This document shows, piece after piece, positions 1 to 23,681 of a stretch of DNA of 32,867 bases (position 1 is the stretch's first letter; the number at the start of each line of letters is the position of its first letter). Made by a program: the position numbers and the translations under genes. Under the pieces are notes generated by a model. It was not told the DNA's origin, made no database searches, and worked only from the letters and a program-made list of their open reading frames with translations. The stretch covers positions 1-32,867 of the IMG/VR virus record IMGVR_UViG_3300008261_000086. One strand, 5' to 3'. Source of the DNA: a virus.

Positions 1-1
1 G

Positions 2-238
2 GCGACGTTTAGCGAGGACAAGTTCTTTGAGAACCTCCGCGCATCGCATCCGTACCTTTTCGGTGAGACTGTGGTGCCTGCTACGACGGGTACTGGCGTG
101 GGCGCTGCCCCATCGGCACCCAAGGCCAGCACTGTGCAGGCAGCGCAAGGAGCGGCAGGCAAGGTTGATGCCCGTTCCTTGAGCGCAGATGAGTTCCAGA
201 AGCTGATGCGGGCACGCGGCTTGTCCGCGATTGCCTAA
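2..238 (+). CDS. C-terminal end of a scaffold-like head protein (5' partial)
   Basis: An open frame enters the window at base 2 and ends at TAA 236-238, giving the last 78 residues of a protein whose start lies outside. The visible part has a low-complexity Ala/Gly/Pro/Thr linker in the middle and a charged, helix-prone end with the segment SADEFQKLMRARGLSAIA. It sits directly upstream of the major capsid gene, the usual position of a scaffolding protein, or of a protease-scaffold fusion, in tailed phages. The linker followed by a short helical tail fits a scaffold C-terminus that contacts the coat protein, but no diagnostic motif is visible. The role is inferred from position. A capsid decoration protein is an alternative. 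Confidence 0.6.
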   Translation, partial: ATFSEDKFFENLRASHPYLFGETVVPATTGTGVGAAPSAPKASTVQAAQGAAGKVDARSLSADEFQKLMRARGLSAIA

Positions 239-248
239 AACGACTGAG

Positions 249-272
249 CGCCAGTTGAGTGGTCAATTGGCG
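249..272 (+). promoter_or_regulatory. Stem-loop in the leader of the major capsid gene
   Basis: Bases 249-258 (CGCCAGTTGA) pair with 263-272 (TCAATTGGCG) in a 10-bp stem with one G-U pair and a GTGG tetraloop. It lies between the upstream stop codon and the AAGGAG ribosome binding site of the capsid gene at about 277-282. There is no U-tract, so it is not a typical intrinsic terminator. It could protect a 5' end after mRNA processing or influence capsid translation. The function is inferred. Confidence 0.5.
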
Positions 273-290
273 AACCAAGGAGACTGACAG

Positions 291-1524
291 ATGGCAGATT
301 TTTCGACCATCCTGCAAACGCCTGAGATTCGGGCGCTTGTTCAGGAGAACATCCTTGAGCGTGCGTTCCACGACGCTCTCTTCCCCCGCCTGCTGTTCCG
401 TGGCGAGGCCACTGCCCAGATTTGGCCGGCCAACGTCGGTGACAGCATGGTCTTCACGGGCGTCGGCCTTGTGAAGCCCAAGATGAAGCCGCTGGTTCCG
501 GGTTCTGATCCGGCGCCTTCGACCTATCAGGCCGAGCAGTGGACCGCGACGCTTCAGCAGTACGCTGACAGCATCGACACCCACATGCCGACCAGCATCA
601 CGGCGATTGCGAACCTGTTCCTCCGCAATGCCGCGCAGCTTGGTATGTCGGCGGGTCAGGCTCTCAACCGCATCGTGCGCGATCGTATGTATAACGCGGC
701 TGAGTCGGGCTGGACCGTTGCCGATGGCAACCAGGCTGCGGTGACCGTGCTGCGCGTGAAGCGCCTCAACGGCTTCACCCGCGCTCGTCGCCCCGACCTG
801 CCGACCGGCAGCGCGGTGCGTTTCGACACCGTTTCGACCAACAACCCCCTGCCGATCACCATCTTCGACAGCGGTCTTGCGGCTCCTGTGACCCGTCAGG
901 TCATTGGTTACTCGCCGGACGCTCCGGGTGATGAGGTCGGCCCCGGCACCCTGACCCTGTCGGGCGGCGCCGTGACCGTGTCGGATCGTGACTACGTCTA
1001 CTCTGCTGACCGCACCTACATCGTGCGCGTTGGTGGCGGCAACAGCGTCAACGACATCGGCTCCAACGACACAGTTCGCCCTTGGCGAGTTGCTCAACAC
1101 CGTGTTCTTCCGTAACTCGGAGTGCCCGGTTCCTGAGACCGTTGATGGTGGCCAGACTGCGACCTTCTCGCAGGAAGACCCCTTCGCTGGCGAACTCTAC
1201 AACGACGGCACCACCGCTGGCGTGAAGGTTCACCGTGCGCTGTTCTCTGGCCAGGGTGGTATCTACGAGTACTATCAGGACATGGGCGGGCTGCTTACGG
1301 ACGCTGGCATCACCGGCAAGGTGGGCGAGCCCCGCGTCACGAACAACAGCATTGAGGTCTTCACCGACCGCATCCAGCTGATCCTCCGTTCGCCGCTGAA
1401 CCGCCTCCAGGATCTGGTTTCGACCAGCTGGAAGTTCATCGGTGATTGGCCGGTTCGCACCGACGCCACCACTGGCGACGCAGCGCGTTATAAGCGCTTC
1501 GCGGTTGTGATGTCGGGCGAGTAA
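291..1524 (+). CDS. Major capsid protein, reading frame disrupted near base 1071
   Basis: This is the main head shell protein, probably HK97-fold. The first part reads from ATG 291 (AAGGAG upstream) for about 260 residues, then continues in the +1 frame from about base 1072 to the stop at 1524. Reading through the switch gives about 410 residues, a normal coat size. Residues 1-150 form a charged helical N-arm and a region rich in Ala, Gln and Arg (for example TAIANLFLRNAAQLGMSAG). The second frame contains FALGELLNTVFFRN and ends in LQDLVSTSWKFIGDW and RYKRFAVVMSGE. Without the switch the first frame ends at 1115 with the unrelated tail VRPWRVAQHRVLP. No slippery sequence is seen at the junction, so a 1-base insertion or 2-base deletion (real or an assembly error) is more likely than programmed shifting. 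Position after the scaffold-like gene and before the neck genes supports the call. Confidence 0.75.
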
Positions 1525-1534
1525 AGCCTAGAGT

Positions 1535-1936
1535 GCAGGGCGCCTTGCTTGAAGTAGATGCGGGCGCCCTGCCTTACGCTTGACATCGTTTCACCTCACC
1601 CGCGATGCGGGTTTATGTATGGGACACGACCGTCCCGTCTTGAGGTGATCCCGGATACCTGGTCACCTGTGGTGGCCCTTGTCATGGTTCCGGGTTTTAC
1701 CGACCACATAGTGTGTCGGTGTATGGGGCAAACCCAGCGTTTTTACGCTTGGAACCGCCCCGCCTTGCGGTGATAGGACTCGCTCGCCTTCATGGCTCGT
1801 CGTTTGTCCTATCGGCTTTGTCTGCGGGGCCGGTCTTGTTCGGGCTGCTACCGCCGTCACGGGGTCGGATAACCCCGGTTAATCGCAGCCCTTCGTTATG
1901 ACCGGCCCCGCGCCGCGCTTTCCCTGACCCAAGGGA
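1535..1936 (+). ncRNA. Candidate structured RNA downstream of the major capsid gene
   Basis: About 400 nt without a convincing gene, filled with inverted repeats. Perfect or near-perfect stems seen by eye: 1535-1544/1563-1572 (10 bp); 1591-1598/1641-1648 (8 bp) enclosing 1599-1603/1607-1611 and 1619-1625/1632-1638, a three-way junction; 1650-1655/1689-1694 enclosing 1661-1667/1671-1677; 1699-1704/1715-1720; 1725-1729/1757-1761 enclosing 1736-1740/1745-1749; 1772-1779/1806-1813 (8 bp); 1824-1835/1900-1911 (12 bp) enclosing 1842-1848/1885-1891 (7 bp) and 1860-1865/1872-1877; and 1921-1925/1932-1936. Several stems contain G-U pairs, which is expected of RNA rather than of DNA-level palindromes. 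No tRNA or other RNA family is recognised. It may be part of the capsid mRNA 3' region or a separate transcript. Confidence 0.6.
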
Positions 1937-1948
1937 CGGAGATTTTCA

Positions 1949-2263
1949 ATGGCACGCAGGCGCAAGGATCAAGCATCGCTGGACATGGTGGAGGCTGTGG
2001 AGCCTGCCATTGTGGACGCTGCTGAAGTTGCTGCACCTTCGGTTGAGGCAGATGTGCTTCCCGGTGGCGTGGAGGATCAGGAGGAGGCTTCTGTTGAGAT
2101 TGCCAACCCCACTAAGTGGTTGGTGTTGGAAGACCAAACGGTTTCTCTGTTTGGTCAGATGACACTTTTGCCTGCCGGTACGGTTGTTTCCGTGGCCTCC
2201 TATGGTCCAAGCGGAATCAAGCGTATTATGGAGCAGGGTGTGCTGCTAGAGCCGGTGGCTTAA
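1949..2263 (+). CDS. Small acidic protein of the head region, function unknown
   Basis: A 104-residue protein starting at ATG 1949, preceded by a GGAG ribosome binding site at about 1938-1941. It begins with a basic stretch (MARRRKDQ), continues with a long acidic Ala/Val/Glu-rich segment likely to be disordered (residues 10-50), and ends in a compact part with WLVLEDQTVSLFGQMTLLPA and YGPSGIKRIMEQGV. The Gly/Pro-rich second half suggests a small beta fold. It is the first gene after the structured RNA stretch and lies between the capsid and neck genes, where head-completion or decoration proteins are often encoded. I do not recognise the family. A minor head protein or capsid accessory factor is an inference from position only. 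Confidence 0.65.
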   Translation: MARRRKDQASLDMVEAVEPAIVDAAEVAAPSVEADVLPGGVEDQEEASVEIANPTKWLVLEDQTVSLFGQMTLLPAGTVVSVASYGPSGIKRIMEQGVLLEPVA

Positions 2264-2288
2264 AGAGCAGACGCACCGGAGGCGGGCC

Positions 2289-2696
2289 ATGGCATTTACC
2301 GACGAGGAAAAGCAACGCATTCGCTATCACCTCGGCTTCAACTCTGTGGCACCTGCCAGCGGCATTTCGTTCGGCATCGCTCGTCCTATTCAGACACTGT
2401 TCTTGATTGAGCAGGCTATGAACCTCCTCTTGCCAGTGGCAGAGGACAAGGTTCGCTCCATCTTGGGTATTTTGGATGGTATTGAGTGTCGTCTTGTGGA
2501 CGCCCAAGACCGCTTGGCCGCTCAAAGCCTCGACAACCTGACCATGCGGCGGGACGAAACGGACGCACTGGAAGCAGAGTATTACCGTTGGGGCGGGCGT
2601 CTGGCCGACATCTTCGGTGTGCCTTTCTACGCCTACAGCAACCGCTACAAGCACCATGGCAAGAGCTACGCAGGCTCTATTCCGGTGAGGAACTAA
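2289..2696 (+). CDS. Putative head-tail connector (head completion) protein
   Basis: A 135-residue, mainly helical protein starting at ATG 2289 with GGAGG at 2278-2282. It opens with TDEEKQRIRYHLGF, followed by a hydrophobic helix around residues 30-45 (IQTLFLIEQAMNLLLPVAED), a long helix with ILDGIECRLVDAQDRLAAQ, and ends in Tyr-rich sequence (YYRWGGRLADIFGVPFYAYSNRY). Small, all-helical proteins encoded two or three genes after the coat protein are commonly adaptor proteins that extend the portal, such as the gp6/gp15-type connectors. The order capsid, small proteins, HK97 gp10-like, terminator-like, sheath supports this. The assignment rests on size, helical character and position, and no signature motif is seen. 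Confidence 0.6.
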   Translation: MAFTDEEKQRIRYHLGFNSVAPASGISFGIARPIQTLFLIEQAMNLLLPVAEDKVRSILGILDGIECRLVDAQDRLAAQSLDNLTMRRDETDALEAEYYRWGGRLADIFGVPFYAYSNRYKHHGKSYAGSIPVRN

Positions 2697-2699
2697 GCC

Positions 2700-3251
2700 A
2701 TGAGCGCGTGTGGTGGCGGTCCCCGCTTCACTCAGTTGAACGGGCTGGACCTGTCACGCACGCTGGCACGTCGTCTGATTTCTACCGTGGACACCCTGCG
2801 CGACTTGAGCACCCGCTTTGGCCTGCGGCCCTACGAAGTTCGCATGGTTCGCACCAAGTGGAGCGGTGGCGAGCGGGGCATTGGCCAAGAGTTTGTGGTC
2901 TTTGACGAGCCGATCCTGCCTACTCCACTCATTCTGGGGTTGGATGGTGTGACTCGTATCGTTCAGCCGGTGGGTTTGGACGAGATTGGTGGATGCCAGT
3001 TAACGCAGGTATCGGGCCGCTACGCAGAGGGGTTCCTGACCGGCAACGACTCAGACGGCAACCCGCTCGACCCAGACGTGCAGTACTACTTTGAGGTTGT
3101 GTTTCCGACACCTGGTAGCGTGTCGGATGGCGCTCCTCGTCGTCGTTTTTACGCTTCTAACGCGCCTACCTATGACGCGGGCAACTTTGAGTGGCGTGTG
3201 AACTTGCAGCGGTCGCACAGCGATAGGCGCAACGACGGGAGCCCCTACTAA
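2700..3251 (+). CDS. Neck-region virion protein of unknown function
   Basis: A 183-residue protein from ATG 2700. The GTGAGG used for ribosome binding lies inside the end of the upstream gene, so the two are translationally close. The N-terminus is helical (LDLSRTLARRLISTVDTLRDL), followed by beta-rich sequence with a repeated 'x-FDEPILPTPLILGLDGVTR' type pattern and PDVQYYFEVVFPTPGS. The C-terminus is basic and polar (NLQRSHSDRRNDGSPY). Its stop codon overlaps the next start (TAATG at 3248-3252), which suggests coupled translation. No family is recognised. Its place among the head-completion genes suggests a structural or assembly part of the neck. This is inference. Confidence 0.6.
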   Translation: MSACGGGPRFTQLNGLDLSRTLARRLISTVDTLRDLSTRFGLRPYEVRMVRTKWSGGERGIGQEFVVFDEPILPTPLILGLDGVTRIVQPVGLDEIGGCQLTQVSGRYAEGFLTGNDSDGNPLDPDVQYYFEVVFPTPGSVSDGAPRRRFYASNAPTYDAGNFEWRVNLQRSHSDRRNDGSPY

Positions 3252-3829
3252 TGGCTCGCCGCATCATCGACATGCGGACCGTTGAGCGGGTGCCCTCACA
3301 CTTGGAGCGGTATCAGCGCATTTTCATGCAAGAAGCCTATCGTGGACTGCGCGCGGTGGAGTTTTTTGCAGTAGCGACCATGCGTTATGCAGTCATGTCT
3401 GCACCGCCCACCAGCGTTGCGAACATGCAAAGCCGTCGCAAAAATGCTCCAGCAATTGTGGCTAAACCAGGTGCTATTGCCACAGGTGCGTATCGCGACG
3501 ATTGGCGAGCCAAGCGTAGAACACAGAACGGCTCAATTGGTGTTTTGGTTTACAACACCAAGATATACGCCCCTAACATTGAGTACGGACGTCGCCCAGG
3601 CCGAATGCCGCCTGTGACGGCTATTCGCAAGTGGTTGCAGGTGAAGTTCTCCCTTCCTTACCGACGCGCAAAGCGCCTTGCGTGGCCTATTGCGGGTGCT
3701 ATCAAGAAAAACGGCATTCGCGGTCGCAAGATTATGACCGCTGAACGCACAGAAGTCTCGTTTCGGTATCACATGGAAGAAACAGCCGTTAAGGCGCAGA
3801 CTCGCGCTCTTCGGAGGGCATTCCGATGA
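3251..3829 (+). CDS. HK97 gp10-like neck/tail completion protein
   Basis: A strongly basic 192-residue protein starting at ATG 3251, overlapping the previous stop by one base. It has an N-terminal helical part (VERYQ-type helices with residues HLERYQRIFMQEAYRGL), then APAIVAKPGAIATGAYRDDWRAK, and the segment YAPNIEYGRRPGRMPPVTAIR followed by KWLQVKF. A run ending in 'xYAPxIEyG' plus a Pro/Arg loop and a W-containing helix is typical of the HK97 gp10-like family, small proteins that help finish the head-tail joint or tail. It sits between the connector candidate and a tail-terminator-like gene, which fits. The C-terminal 40 residues are Arg/Lys rich. Confidence in the family is moderate since the call is from motif memory. 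Confidence 0.65.
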   Translation: MARRIIDMRTVERVPSHLERYQRIFMQEAYRGLRAVEFFAVATMRYAVMSAPPTSVANMQSRRKNAPAIVAKPGAIATGAYRDDWRAKRRTQNGSIGVLVYNTKIYAPNIEYGRRPGRMPPVTAIRKWLQVKFSLPYRRAKRLAWPIAGAIKKNGIRGRKIMTAERTEVSFRYHMEETAVKAQTRALRRAFR

Positions 3830-16368: not shown

Positions 16369-18639
16369 ATGGCGACTTATTTTTTCGACAAGAACGGAGC
16401 CACGGCGGGCTTTGGCACGCTTACCGGCAACTGGGCCGACGTATCTTGGTCGCTCAGTGGTGCAGGAACCTCTGGCACGTTTGTTACTTGGCCCGGTGCC
16501 GGTAACGTCGCGTCGTTTGGCGGCACGTCAAACACGGCAACCGCAGGAACTATTACCGCTGCCGGGACAATCAACCTCGACGGCATCATCCAACAGAATC
16601 TCACGGGAAATCAGACATATAATGGTGGAACGCTTAACTTTGGTTCCGTAACAGGCACCATCAACCTGCTGACCGGCAATGCATCTATTAACTCAGCAAT
16701 CACGGGTACGAACGGCCTAACACATACAGGAAGCCAACTTCTCTTCCTTTACGGGAGTTTTGCTGGCCTTACAGGAACGGTCACCAACAATTCCAGCACG
16801 TTCCTTGTGCCGGTATTTAAGTCGTCATACACAACGACTGCGAACTTCACGAACTCTGGCACTGGGTTTCTTGGCTTCTACGTCGATACAGGCTTCACCG
16901 GAACGGTGTCTGGAACCATTACCAGTTCGGTCAACACAGTGAGCATTCGTGGCGATGCGCTCGGCGTTGCCGGCACACTGAAGCTAACCGGCGACATTAC
17001 TGGCATCAGCAACTTTGAGTTTTACAACGGTGGTGTGGTTTATAGCAGGACGCTTCCTGCTGTCCTGACGTTTTCGGGCTATGACCTCACCTATCCCAAC
17101 AGGCAGTTCTATATCAACGCCTCCACGACGCAGTCGCGTGCAATGAATGTGTCGTTAGAGGATTTGGCGAGCGTCACGAACACCATCGGCGCGGGCGCGT
17201 CTGCGGATGCGGCTGCTGCCGCTGCCACAATCTCTGGGACAATCGCCAAGGGCGGCACGAACGCAGTCACATTCTCGCTTGATGGCACCAGCACTTTTGA
17301 CAATACGCATAGCGGGAACGCTACGTTTACCGCTGCCAACAATGTCGCCTTTGAGAAGAACGGTGGCGGCAAGTGGATTGTTTCCGGCGATAAGACGGGG
17401 TTTAAGTCGAGTATCATTAAGGGCGGAACGCTTCGCGCAGCATCGTCAACTGCCATCGGTGGCGCGCTGACGATGAGCGCCAGCACGGTGTTTGAGGTGT
17501 CGGGCGGGATTACGCTTTCCAACGTAATCAACGCTATCGGCACGGTTCGCAATGTGTCGGGCAGCAACAGCCTGACGGGCACCTCGCTGGTGCTGGCTGG
17601 CTCGACCACCTTTGAGTCACTGGCCGATACGTTGACCGTGAACTTGGGTTCGGGTGCCAGCATTACCGGCGCAACACAGCCGCTCACCTTCTCTGGCGCA
17701 GGCAACCACACGGTCACGTCGGTCATCGCGACGACAACCGGCACGGTGACCAAAAACGGTGCAGGCACCACGACCTTTAATGGTGCCAACAGCTTCTCTG
17801 GCTCCATCGCGCACAACGCGGGCGTCATTGAGGCCAACACCATCACGTCGAGCGGCAACAACTCGCTGGGCACGGGCACTACTTTCACCTTCGGTGGCGC
17901 GGCGACCCTGCGGTACACGGGCAGCACGCCCGCTGAGTTGTCGAAGACGGTGGTGTCGGTGCCCGCCTCGGGCGCGGTGTTTGAGAACAACGGCACAAGC
18001 GCCTGGACGGTGTCCTCGCTGACCGCAGCCAACGCGGGCACGGTGCTGGGCCTTGCGGGCAGCAACGAGGGCTACAACAAGTTGTCGCCCGCCTCGACCC
18101 CGGCGAACCTCGTCGGTTTCACCAAGACGGGCGCAGGTCGCTGGATCAGCACGCTGAACGTGAACCCAGCCTCTGGCTCGACGGCAGTGAATGGCGGCAC
18201 GCTGGTGGCGTCGAACAGCAACGGCACCTCCAAGTTGTTCGGTTACGACGTGACGGTGGAGAGCGGCGCGAAGATTCAAACCGGTTCTGACGAGGTTGGG
18301 CAGGCAGGCAAGTGCGCCTACAACAACCTGACGTTCAATGGTGTGGCTGGCACTCCTGCCCGCATCCGCATTGGCGGCAGCGTCGTCAACCCGACTATCT
18401 ATATGACGGGTACACTGACCATTCCGGCTGGTGGCATGACATGGAACTTGGCTGGTGCGGACGTGTTCAAGACGCCTGGCACCTACACGCTGGTGGAGTT
18501 CGGGCCGAGCGGGTCAATGAGTGGGTCGGTGTCCAACATCACCGTCACCAATCCTCCGACGGGCCGCAGTGTGGTTCCGGGATCACTGACCTACAACTCT
18601 GGGACGACGCCCAAGACCATCACGGTGCAGATCGCCTAA
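16369..18639 (+). CDS. Large beta-helical protein with autotransporter-like strand repeats
   Basis: A 756-residue protein from ATG 16369 (GGGAG upstream). It is almost wholly Gly/Thr/Ser/Asn-rich beta sequence. Repeats of the type GTVTKNGAGTTTFNGANSFS and VGFTKTGAGRWISTLN resemble the autotransporter-associated beta-strand repeat (PATR, as in PF12951/TIGR02601), which forms parallel beta helices in secreted bacterial passengers. The N-terminus has the 'W-x-NW/GNW-D-V-x-F-x-GT' layout (GNWADVSWSLSG, GNVASFGGT) typical of such passengers. There is no signal peptide and no membrane barrel at the C-terminus, so it is not an autotransporter. In a phage it would be a fibre or tailspike-like adhesin. 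The last about 75 residues match the small upstream protein. Depolymerase activity is possible but no active site can be assigned. Confidence 0.7.
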   Translation: MATYFFDKNGATAGFGTLTGNWADVSWSLSGAGTSGTFVTWPGAGNVASFGGTSNTATAGTITAAGTINLDGIIQQNLTGNQTYNGGTLNFGSVTGTINLLTGNASINSAITGTNGLTHTGSQLLFLYGSFAGLTGTVTNNSSTFLVPVFKSSYTTTANFTNSGTGFLGFYVDTGFTGTVSGTITSSVNTVSIRGDALGVAGTLKLTGDITGISNFEFYNGGVVYSRTLPAVLTFSGYDLTYPNRQFYINASTTQSRAMNVSLEDLASVTNTIGAGASADAAAAAATISGTIAKGGTNAVTFSLDGTSTFDNTHSGNATFTAANNVAFEKNGGGKWIVSGDKTGFKSSIIKGGTLRAASSTAIGGALTMSASTVFEVSGGITLSNVINAIGTVRNVSGSNSLTGTSLVLAGSTTFESLADTLTVNLGSGASITGATQPLTFSGAGNHTVTSVIATTTGTVTKNGAGTTTFNGANSFSGSIAHNAGVIEANTITSSGNNSLGTGTTFTFGGAATLRYTGSTPAELSKTVVSVPASGAVFENNGTSAWTVSSLTAANAGTVLGLAGSNEGYNKLSPASTPANLVGFTKTGAGRWISTLNVNPASGSTAVNGGTLVASNSNGTSKLFGYDVTVESGAKIQTGSDEVGQAGKCAYNNLTFNGVAGTPARIRIGGSVVNPTIYMTGTLTIPAGGMTWNLAGADVFKTPGTYTLVEFGPSGSMSGSVSNITVTNPPTGRSVVPGSLTYNSGTTPKTITVQIA

Positions 18640-23606: not shown

Positions 23607-23681
23607 GGGGCGCAGGTGTTGACGGTGGCATGCGGGCTTTGCAAGCCTGAGGGCGGGTTTCGATCACCCGGCGCTCCACCA
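23607..23681 (+). tRNA. tRNA-Ala (anticodon TGC) with encoded CCA
   Basis: A complete cloverleaf: acceptor GGGGCGC 23607-23613 with GCGCTCC 23671-23677, A73 then CCA at 23679-23681; anticodon stem 23633-23637/23645-23649 with loop TTTGCAA and anticodon TGC at 23640-23642; T stem 23654-23658/23666-23670 with loop TTCGATC. The D arm (from 23616) is weak with G-U pairs, and positions 8-9 read AG instead of the usual T-R. The third acceptor pair is G-U (G3-U70), the alanine identity element, which supports the anticodon-based call. Confidence 0.88.

Follow-up and report, generated by a model that had tools for sequence, protein, structure and literature searches.

A conserved, pseudoknotted RNA structure downstream of the major capsid gene in a family of uncultured phages

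Phages pack their genes tightly, so 400 conserved non-coding bases beside a major capsid gene must pay their way, and the locus analysed here raises the question of what such a stretch does. The window, which is the whole stretch of 32,867 nucleotides analysed (IMG/VR record IMGVR_UViG_3300008261_000086), is the first half of a 64.8-kb contig from an uncultured virus of bacteria, and the region in question (1525–1948) is flanked on one side by the stop of mcp, the gene of the major capsid protein, and on the other by a gene for a 104-aa protein. A sequence-only reading of the window had placed a chain of strong stem-loops directly behind the major capsid gene. The identity of that gene holds, its product being a phrog_1357 major head protein (E 1.9e-6), but its frame is broken in the window: 175 nt are missing at 1072–1073 in comparison with the almost identical contig L026, with an identity of 98.9% before the gap and 100% over 5.8 kb after it, and the gap probably reflects faulty assembly or a copy that is defective. 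Elsewhere in the window, a tRNA-Ala (TGC) gene stands alone at 23607–23681, and a 756-aa ORF at 16369–18639 with one passenger-associated-transport repeat (PF12951, E 1.5e-6) is possibly a tail or fibre protein. The features of the locus are given below, with helices numbered as in A2, an alignment of six close relatives made from sequence only.

291..1524, + strand: major capsid protein gene (mcp); phrog_1357 match, tblastn to relatives; frame broken near 1072
1535..1572, + strand: P1, 10-bp hairpin right behind the mcp stop (1535-1544/1563-1572); peripheral
1591..1648, + strand: P2, three-way junction with an 8-bp closing stem and inner hairpins at 1599-1611 and 1621-1636; peripheral
1650..1694, + strand: P3, stem around the CACCUGUGGUGG hairpin (1661-1677); helices 6 and 7 of A2
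1699..1720, + strand: P4, 6-bp hairpin; weakly supported (helix 8, 69% of cells paired)
1725..1761, + strand: P5, core hairpin of stem, AAA-AACC internal loop, CC-GG and stem; covariance model R1
1767..1916, + strand: P6, proposed closing stem of the 3′ domain (1767-1771/1912-1916); in the MFE fold
1772..1813, + strand: P6a, 8-bp hairpin (1772-1779/1806-1813); close to invariant in close relatives (helix 11)
1824..1911, + strand: P7, 12-bp stem (1824-1835/1900-1911) with an inner 7-bp stem (1842-1848/1885-1891), closing the pseudoknot; helices 13 and 14
1854..1877, + strand: H-type pseudoknot, S1 1854-1856/1866-1868 and S2 1860-1865/1872-1877; helices 15 and 16
1917..1924, + strand: tail GCUUUCCC; a longer U-run at the same place in some relatives
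1949..2263, + strand: next gene, 104-aa protein of unknown function; far-side anchor of the spacer

The MFE of 1525–1948 was −202.8 kcal/mol, against −163.8 ± 5.95 kcal/mol in dinucleotide shuffles (z −6.56), and none of 100 shuffles folded as low, so the folding-energy comparison suggested by the sequence-only reading came out in favour of a structure; the 3′ core (1725–1924) gave a folding z of −5.11. The stems named in that reading were found, namely the 10-bp P1, the three-way junction at 1591–1648, the 8-bp P6a and the 12-bp P7, with a 7-bp and a 6-bp stem nested inside it. The 6-bp stem exists, but it forms S2 (CGGGGU/ACCCCG) of an H-type pseudoknot that had been overlooked, whose other stem, S1, is CCG/CGG. 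The 5′ part of the element is variable and consists of highly stable hairpins in a chain, and the 3′ core is made up of P5, then P7 with the pseudoknot. P1 is poorly preserved in close relatives (helices 1 and 2, with 74% and 43% of cells paired), and two-sided changes among close relatives were observed in the P2 closing stem and second inner hairpin (helices 3–5). P6-like pairings were seen by eye in relatives; P6 is only proposed, because an unconstrained search did no better than shuffled tails.

Relatives were gathered by IMG/VR capsid searches (27 and then 80 loci, partly overlapping), and the length of the spacer between mcp and the next gene was found to be bimodal, with 61 of 85 distinct spacers being ≥300 nt and 21 being <200 nt. 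A z below −3 was obtained for 51 of the 61 long spacers (median −5.4), and the median of the short spacers reaches −3.1 because many of them contain one strong hairpin.

Across the whole structure, 90% of the cells in A2 pair, and two-sided changes were observed in 30 of the 96 pairs, compared with 14.3 in shuffles and 6–10 in shifted pairings, though the structure was taken from the window's own fold, which biases the comparison in favour of true over shifted pairings. Both S1 and S2 pair in every A2 sequence with two-sided changes, and this is the independent evidence for the predicted pseudoknot. A strict form (S2 starting with CG, then G) occurs in the last 130 nt of 22 of the 61 long spacers, against 0.66% of shuffles. 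The 39 pseudoknots that were parsed show many pair types at the S2 positions, with an A preceding S2 in 30 of them, and S2 pairing drops from 100% to 64% when partners are swapped between sequences, the 100% being built in because the examples were selected by pairing. The model R2, built on the 200-nt core of five close relatives, also picked up remote members, four of them (L164, L111, L151, L166) with approximate E-values between 4e-7 and 1e-5 and others more weakly; only these four count, since from 1e-4 on R2 gives some antisense self-hits too. The compensatory changes contradict a chance folding of GC-rich sequence, and a fast-evolving small gene, for which the region offers ORFs of 62–71 aa, meets the difficulty that no ORF is shared among the relatives beyond local DNA similarity; this pair of readings is extremely improbable. 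The protein-coding reading of 1525–1948 was thus rejected, in keeping with the earlier statement that no convincing protein is encoded.

The family signature, GCAAACCC...UGGAACCGC, is contributed by P5. Viral contigs were scanned with a DNA pattern in which only GCAAACCC...TGGAACCGC was fixed, with 10–16 free bases between, and after de-duplication 37 matches were obtained in the family, 36 within 1 kb behind mcp and one on the fragment L143. A 4–6 bp stem was present in the free bases of all 37, although the pattern did not demand one; among 12 other matches only L144 has the stem, and its RNA also lies downstream of mcp, 2.5 kb off, behind inserted genes. Three matches of a looser pattern were not accepted by the P5 model. 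The P5 covariation score over 34 aligned sequences was 0.512, compared with 0.153 in shuffles and 0.08–0.13 in shifted pairings, and both stems flanking the AAA/AACC loop contain many pair types, so the covariation that had been put forward as a check was found in P5 as well as in A2. The loop itself is constant in most sequences and altered (e.g., AACUCC / UGGAUC) in the window's closest relatives. The covariance model R1, built from these 34 sequences, recovered members outside its training set, namely L059 (44.5 bits), L046 (41.9), L102 (37.0), L144 (34.6), L099 (30.4), L085 (26.5) and L041 (23.3). Its matches are always behind mcp and on the same strand, one per phage record in the records having P5, with no confident match elsewhere in about 1.08 Mb and none in 289 bacterial genomes (one class, no positive control). 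The RNA is a single-copy element of defined fold, strand and place, and it is deeply conserved. Several other long spacers (L043, L044, L068, L088, L092, L097, L098 and others) were observed in which P5 was not found, with the strict pseudoknot absent or of another type in this group; what they contain may be a core that has diverged, or another feature altogether.

Folding energy gives no strand, because the antisense folds as low as the sense, and the counts of G-U against A-C pairs (27 to 11 in A2, 14 to 19 in A3) are too mixed to settle it alone. Hairpins of at least 4 bp capped by CUUCGG were found 72 times on the mcp strand and once antisense in 28.7 kb of spacers, and 4 times in 170 kb of flanking genes. 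Because these loops are one-stranded and the UUCG tetraloop is known to be stable in RNA, the sense RNA is the selected form, and it is an exceptionally stable RNA under selection. A DNA-level element, for example a packaging or replication site folding as hairpins, would agree with inverted repeats that fold well on both strands, but it is very unlikely given the one-stranded UUCG loops, the covarying pseudoknot and the excess of G-U pairs in A2, the last being reversed in A3.

About a quarter of the family has no RNA and a short spacer, and the gene after the spacer is the same in members with and without the RNA. The RNA-less members have spacers of 65–180 nt, with a hairpin and T run in several (L042, L058, L067, L093); a terminator in place of the RNA is not general, as a run of four T occurs in only 8 of the 21 short spacers. 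Of the 82 rows of a capsid tree, 48 carry P5, the pseudoknot or both, some of them on deep branches (L107, the L112 group, L109 and L113); a further 20 have a short spacer and neither feature, and 14 are unclear. The short spacers need 5 changes on this tree, 4 of them forced by well-supported branches, which suggests from sequence comparison that the element is likely old and was lost several times; repeated gain may be the alternative, given that the tree was built quickly, is rooted arbitrarily and has some long branches. In L041, a reduced spacer of about 220 nt retains P5 and the pseudoknot only, both within roughly 130 nt, and is a natural minimal form of the RNA. Cultured phages showed no DNA similarity to the window; the closest cultured capsids are 27–31% identical, with 0–58 nt at the RNA site and the element absent, and in Kromp and phiKX1, distant relatives in culture, there is no space for the RNA behind mcp.

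Free-standing HNH-endonuclease-like genes, called from translations, have entered the interval between mcp and the next gene repeatedly (L103, L104, L106, L115, L144). In the first four, spacers near 1000 nt hold such a gene behind mcp. These genes precede the RNA where the RNA is found, and in L002 and L041 they lie after the next gene. In L144, an ORF resembling a dCTP deaminase by eye was also observed about 764–1358 nt past the mcp stop, before the RNA.

With respect to known families, Rfam 15, with its ornate phage RNAs, riboswitches and ribozymes, gave no match at the gathering cut-off for the window and 15 relatives, and permissive thresholds gave only chance-level matches for the window and 6 relatives. 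Mu-gpT-DE RNA (RF03012), which the sequence-only reading had offered as a possible precedent, is, to judge by its name and that reading, likewise structured and located behind the major head gene of a phage, with 53 model positions against about 200 in the core of the window RNA. The element is no member of it: RF03012 had no match in the window's record at E ≤ 10 and none over the cut-off in 5 relatives. The phi29 pRNA is a phage RNA linked to the head, as is the RNA described here, which differs in having no Rfam match. GOLLD and ROOL are large ornate phage RNAs with pseudoknots (PMC12286853); they are longer and often, not universally, near tRNA islands, whereas the window RNA is about 400 nt, is tied to mcp, matches no Rfam model and lies 22 kb from the sole tRNA of the window at 23607. 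The L17 downstream element (RF01708), whose strand was inferred from G-U pairs and stable tetraloops, is likewise structured and lies in what may be the 3′ UTR of a structural gene, but that gene encodes a bacterial ribosomal protein (PMC2864571), and no match to it was found in the Rfam scan. No report of a comparable structured RNA was found in the open-access papers searched, an earlier listing in a viral structured-RNA catalogue being possible. The RNA family, fold and signature appear new, and the general kind has a precedent in Mu-gpT-DE. Covariation, deep conservation, strand-specific UUCG loops and the absence of an Rfam match thus strongly support the earlier proposal of an undescribed structured RNA.

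As to function, the best explanation, suggested by sequence comparison and held at somewhat less than even confidence, is a cis-acting 3′-UTR element that would mark or protect the 3′ end of the mcp mRNA. No sigma-70-like promoter was found in 1–3300 of the window, and as no separate promoter is seen the RNA is read as part of the mcp transcript, with which it would be co-transcribed as the 3′ untranslated region. The 3′ core (P5, P7 with the pseudoknot, and the U-rich tail) would form a compact domain immediately 5′ of the next gene's Shine-Dalgarno, and this domain would form or protect the 3′ end of the capsid message, slowing 3′-to-5′ decay and/or terminating most transcripts, with the result that capsid protein would be made in large excess over the products of the following genes. 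A protein, or a different segment of the RNA, would probably dock at the invariant P5 internal loop. The constant position downstream of mcp, on the same strand and in one copy per phage record, agrees with this role, as do the 72:1 ratio of sense to antisense UUCG hairpins, the terminator-like hairpins with T runs in several RNA-less members, the retention of P5 and the pseudoknot in L041, and the bacterial precedent of the L17 downstream element (PMC2864571). A run of at least four T was observed in the tails of 21 out of 54 relatives; among other stretches of the spacers the share is 13%. The position, extreme stability, partial U-rich tails and terminator-like hairpins thus fit a 3′-UTR element. 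Nevertheless, with three U only in its tail, GCUUUCCC, the window itself makes a weak case for termination; 33 of the 54 relatives lack a run of four, terminator replacement is not general, and a terminator scan of the window listed none at P7. The RNA resembles intrinsic terminators and 3′ hairpins that block decay in its place after a presumably highly expressed gene, in its strong stem and, for part of the family, in its U-rich tail. It departs from them in having several domains, an internal loop that does not vary and a stem capped by a pseudoknot. The invariant loop and pseudoknot exceed the needs of a plain decay barrier.

The near-invariant P5 loop suggests a bound partner, which keeps two further readings alive. 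By analogy with phi29 pRNA or the ornate RNAs ROOL and GOLLD, a separate trans-acting RNA might be cut from the capsid transcript for head assembly, DNA packaging or an RNA-only particle; its size, its ornate fold with a pseudoknot, the conservation of the P5 loop and pseudoknot across deeply diverged capsids and the strict tie to the capsid gene are in line with this. It is nonetheless rather unlikely, since short spacers arising at least 4–5 times on the capsid tree are hard to reconcile with an essential assembly part, and neither a promoter nor an Rfam match was seen. Unlikely too is a late-transcript regulatory switch, in which the capsid protein or RNA polymerase (put-like) would bind P5 or the pseudoknot and control downstream read-through: the invariant internal loop inside variable stems speaks for it, as does the U-rich tail that some members have immediately upstream of the next gene, but neither a partner gene nor a second binding site was identified, and the next gene is of identical kind with and without the RNA. 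No test here favours the packaging RNA or host-acting RNA entertained in the sequence-only reading over a cis role. More speculatively, and decidedly unlikely, the element could represent an unknown class of phage RNA that contributes directly to building or filling the capsid, pseudoknotted, co-expressed with mcp and with its P5 loop bound by a head or packaging protein.

If its role were in assembly or packaging, the RNA would count as a rare working RNA part of a tailed phage. The finding adds an RNA family that is clearly marked by its signature, contains a pseudoknot and has a natural minimal version in L041, and its apparent repeated loss offers natural comparisons for the function of the RNA.
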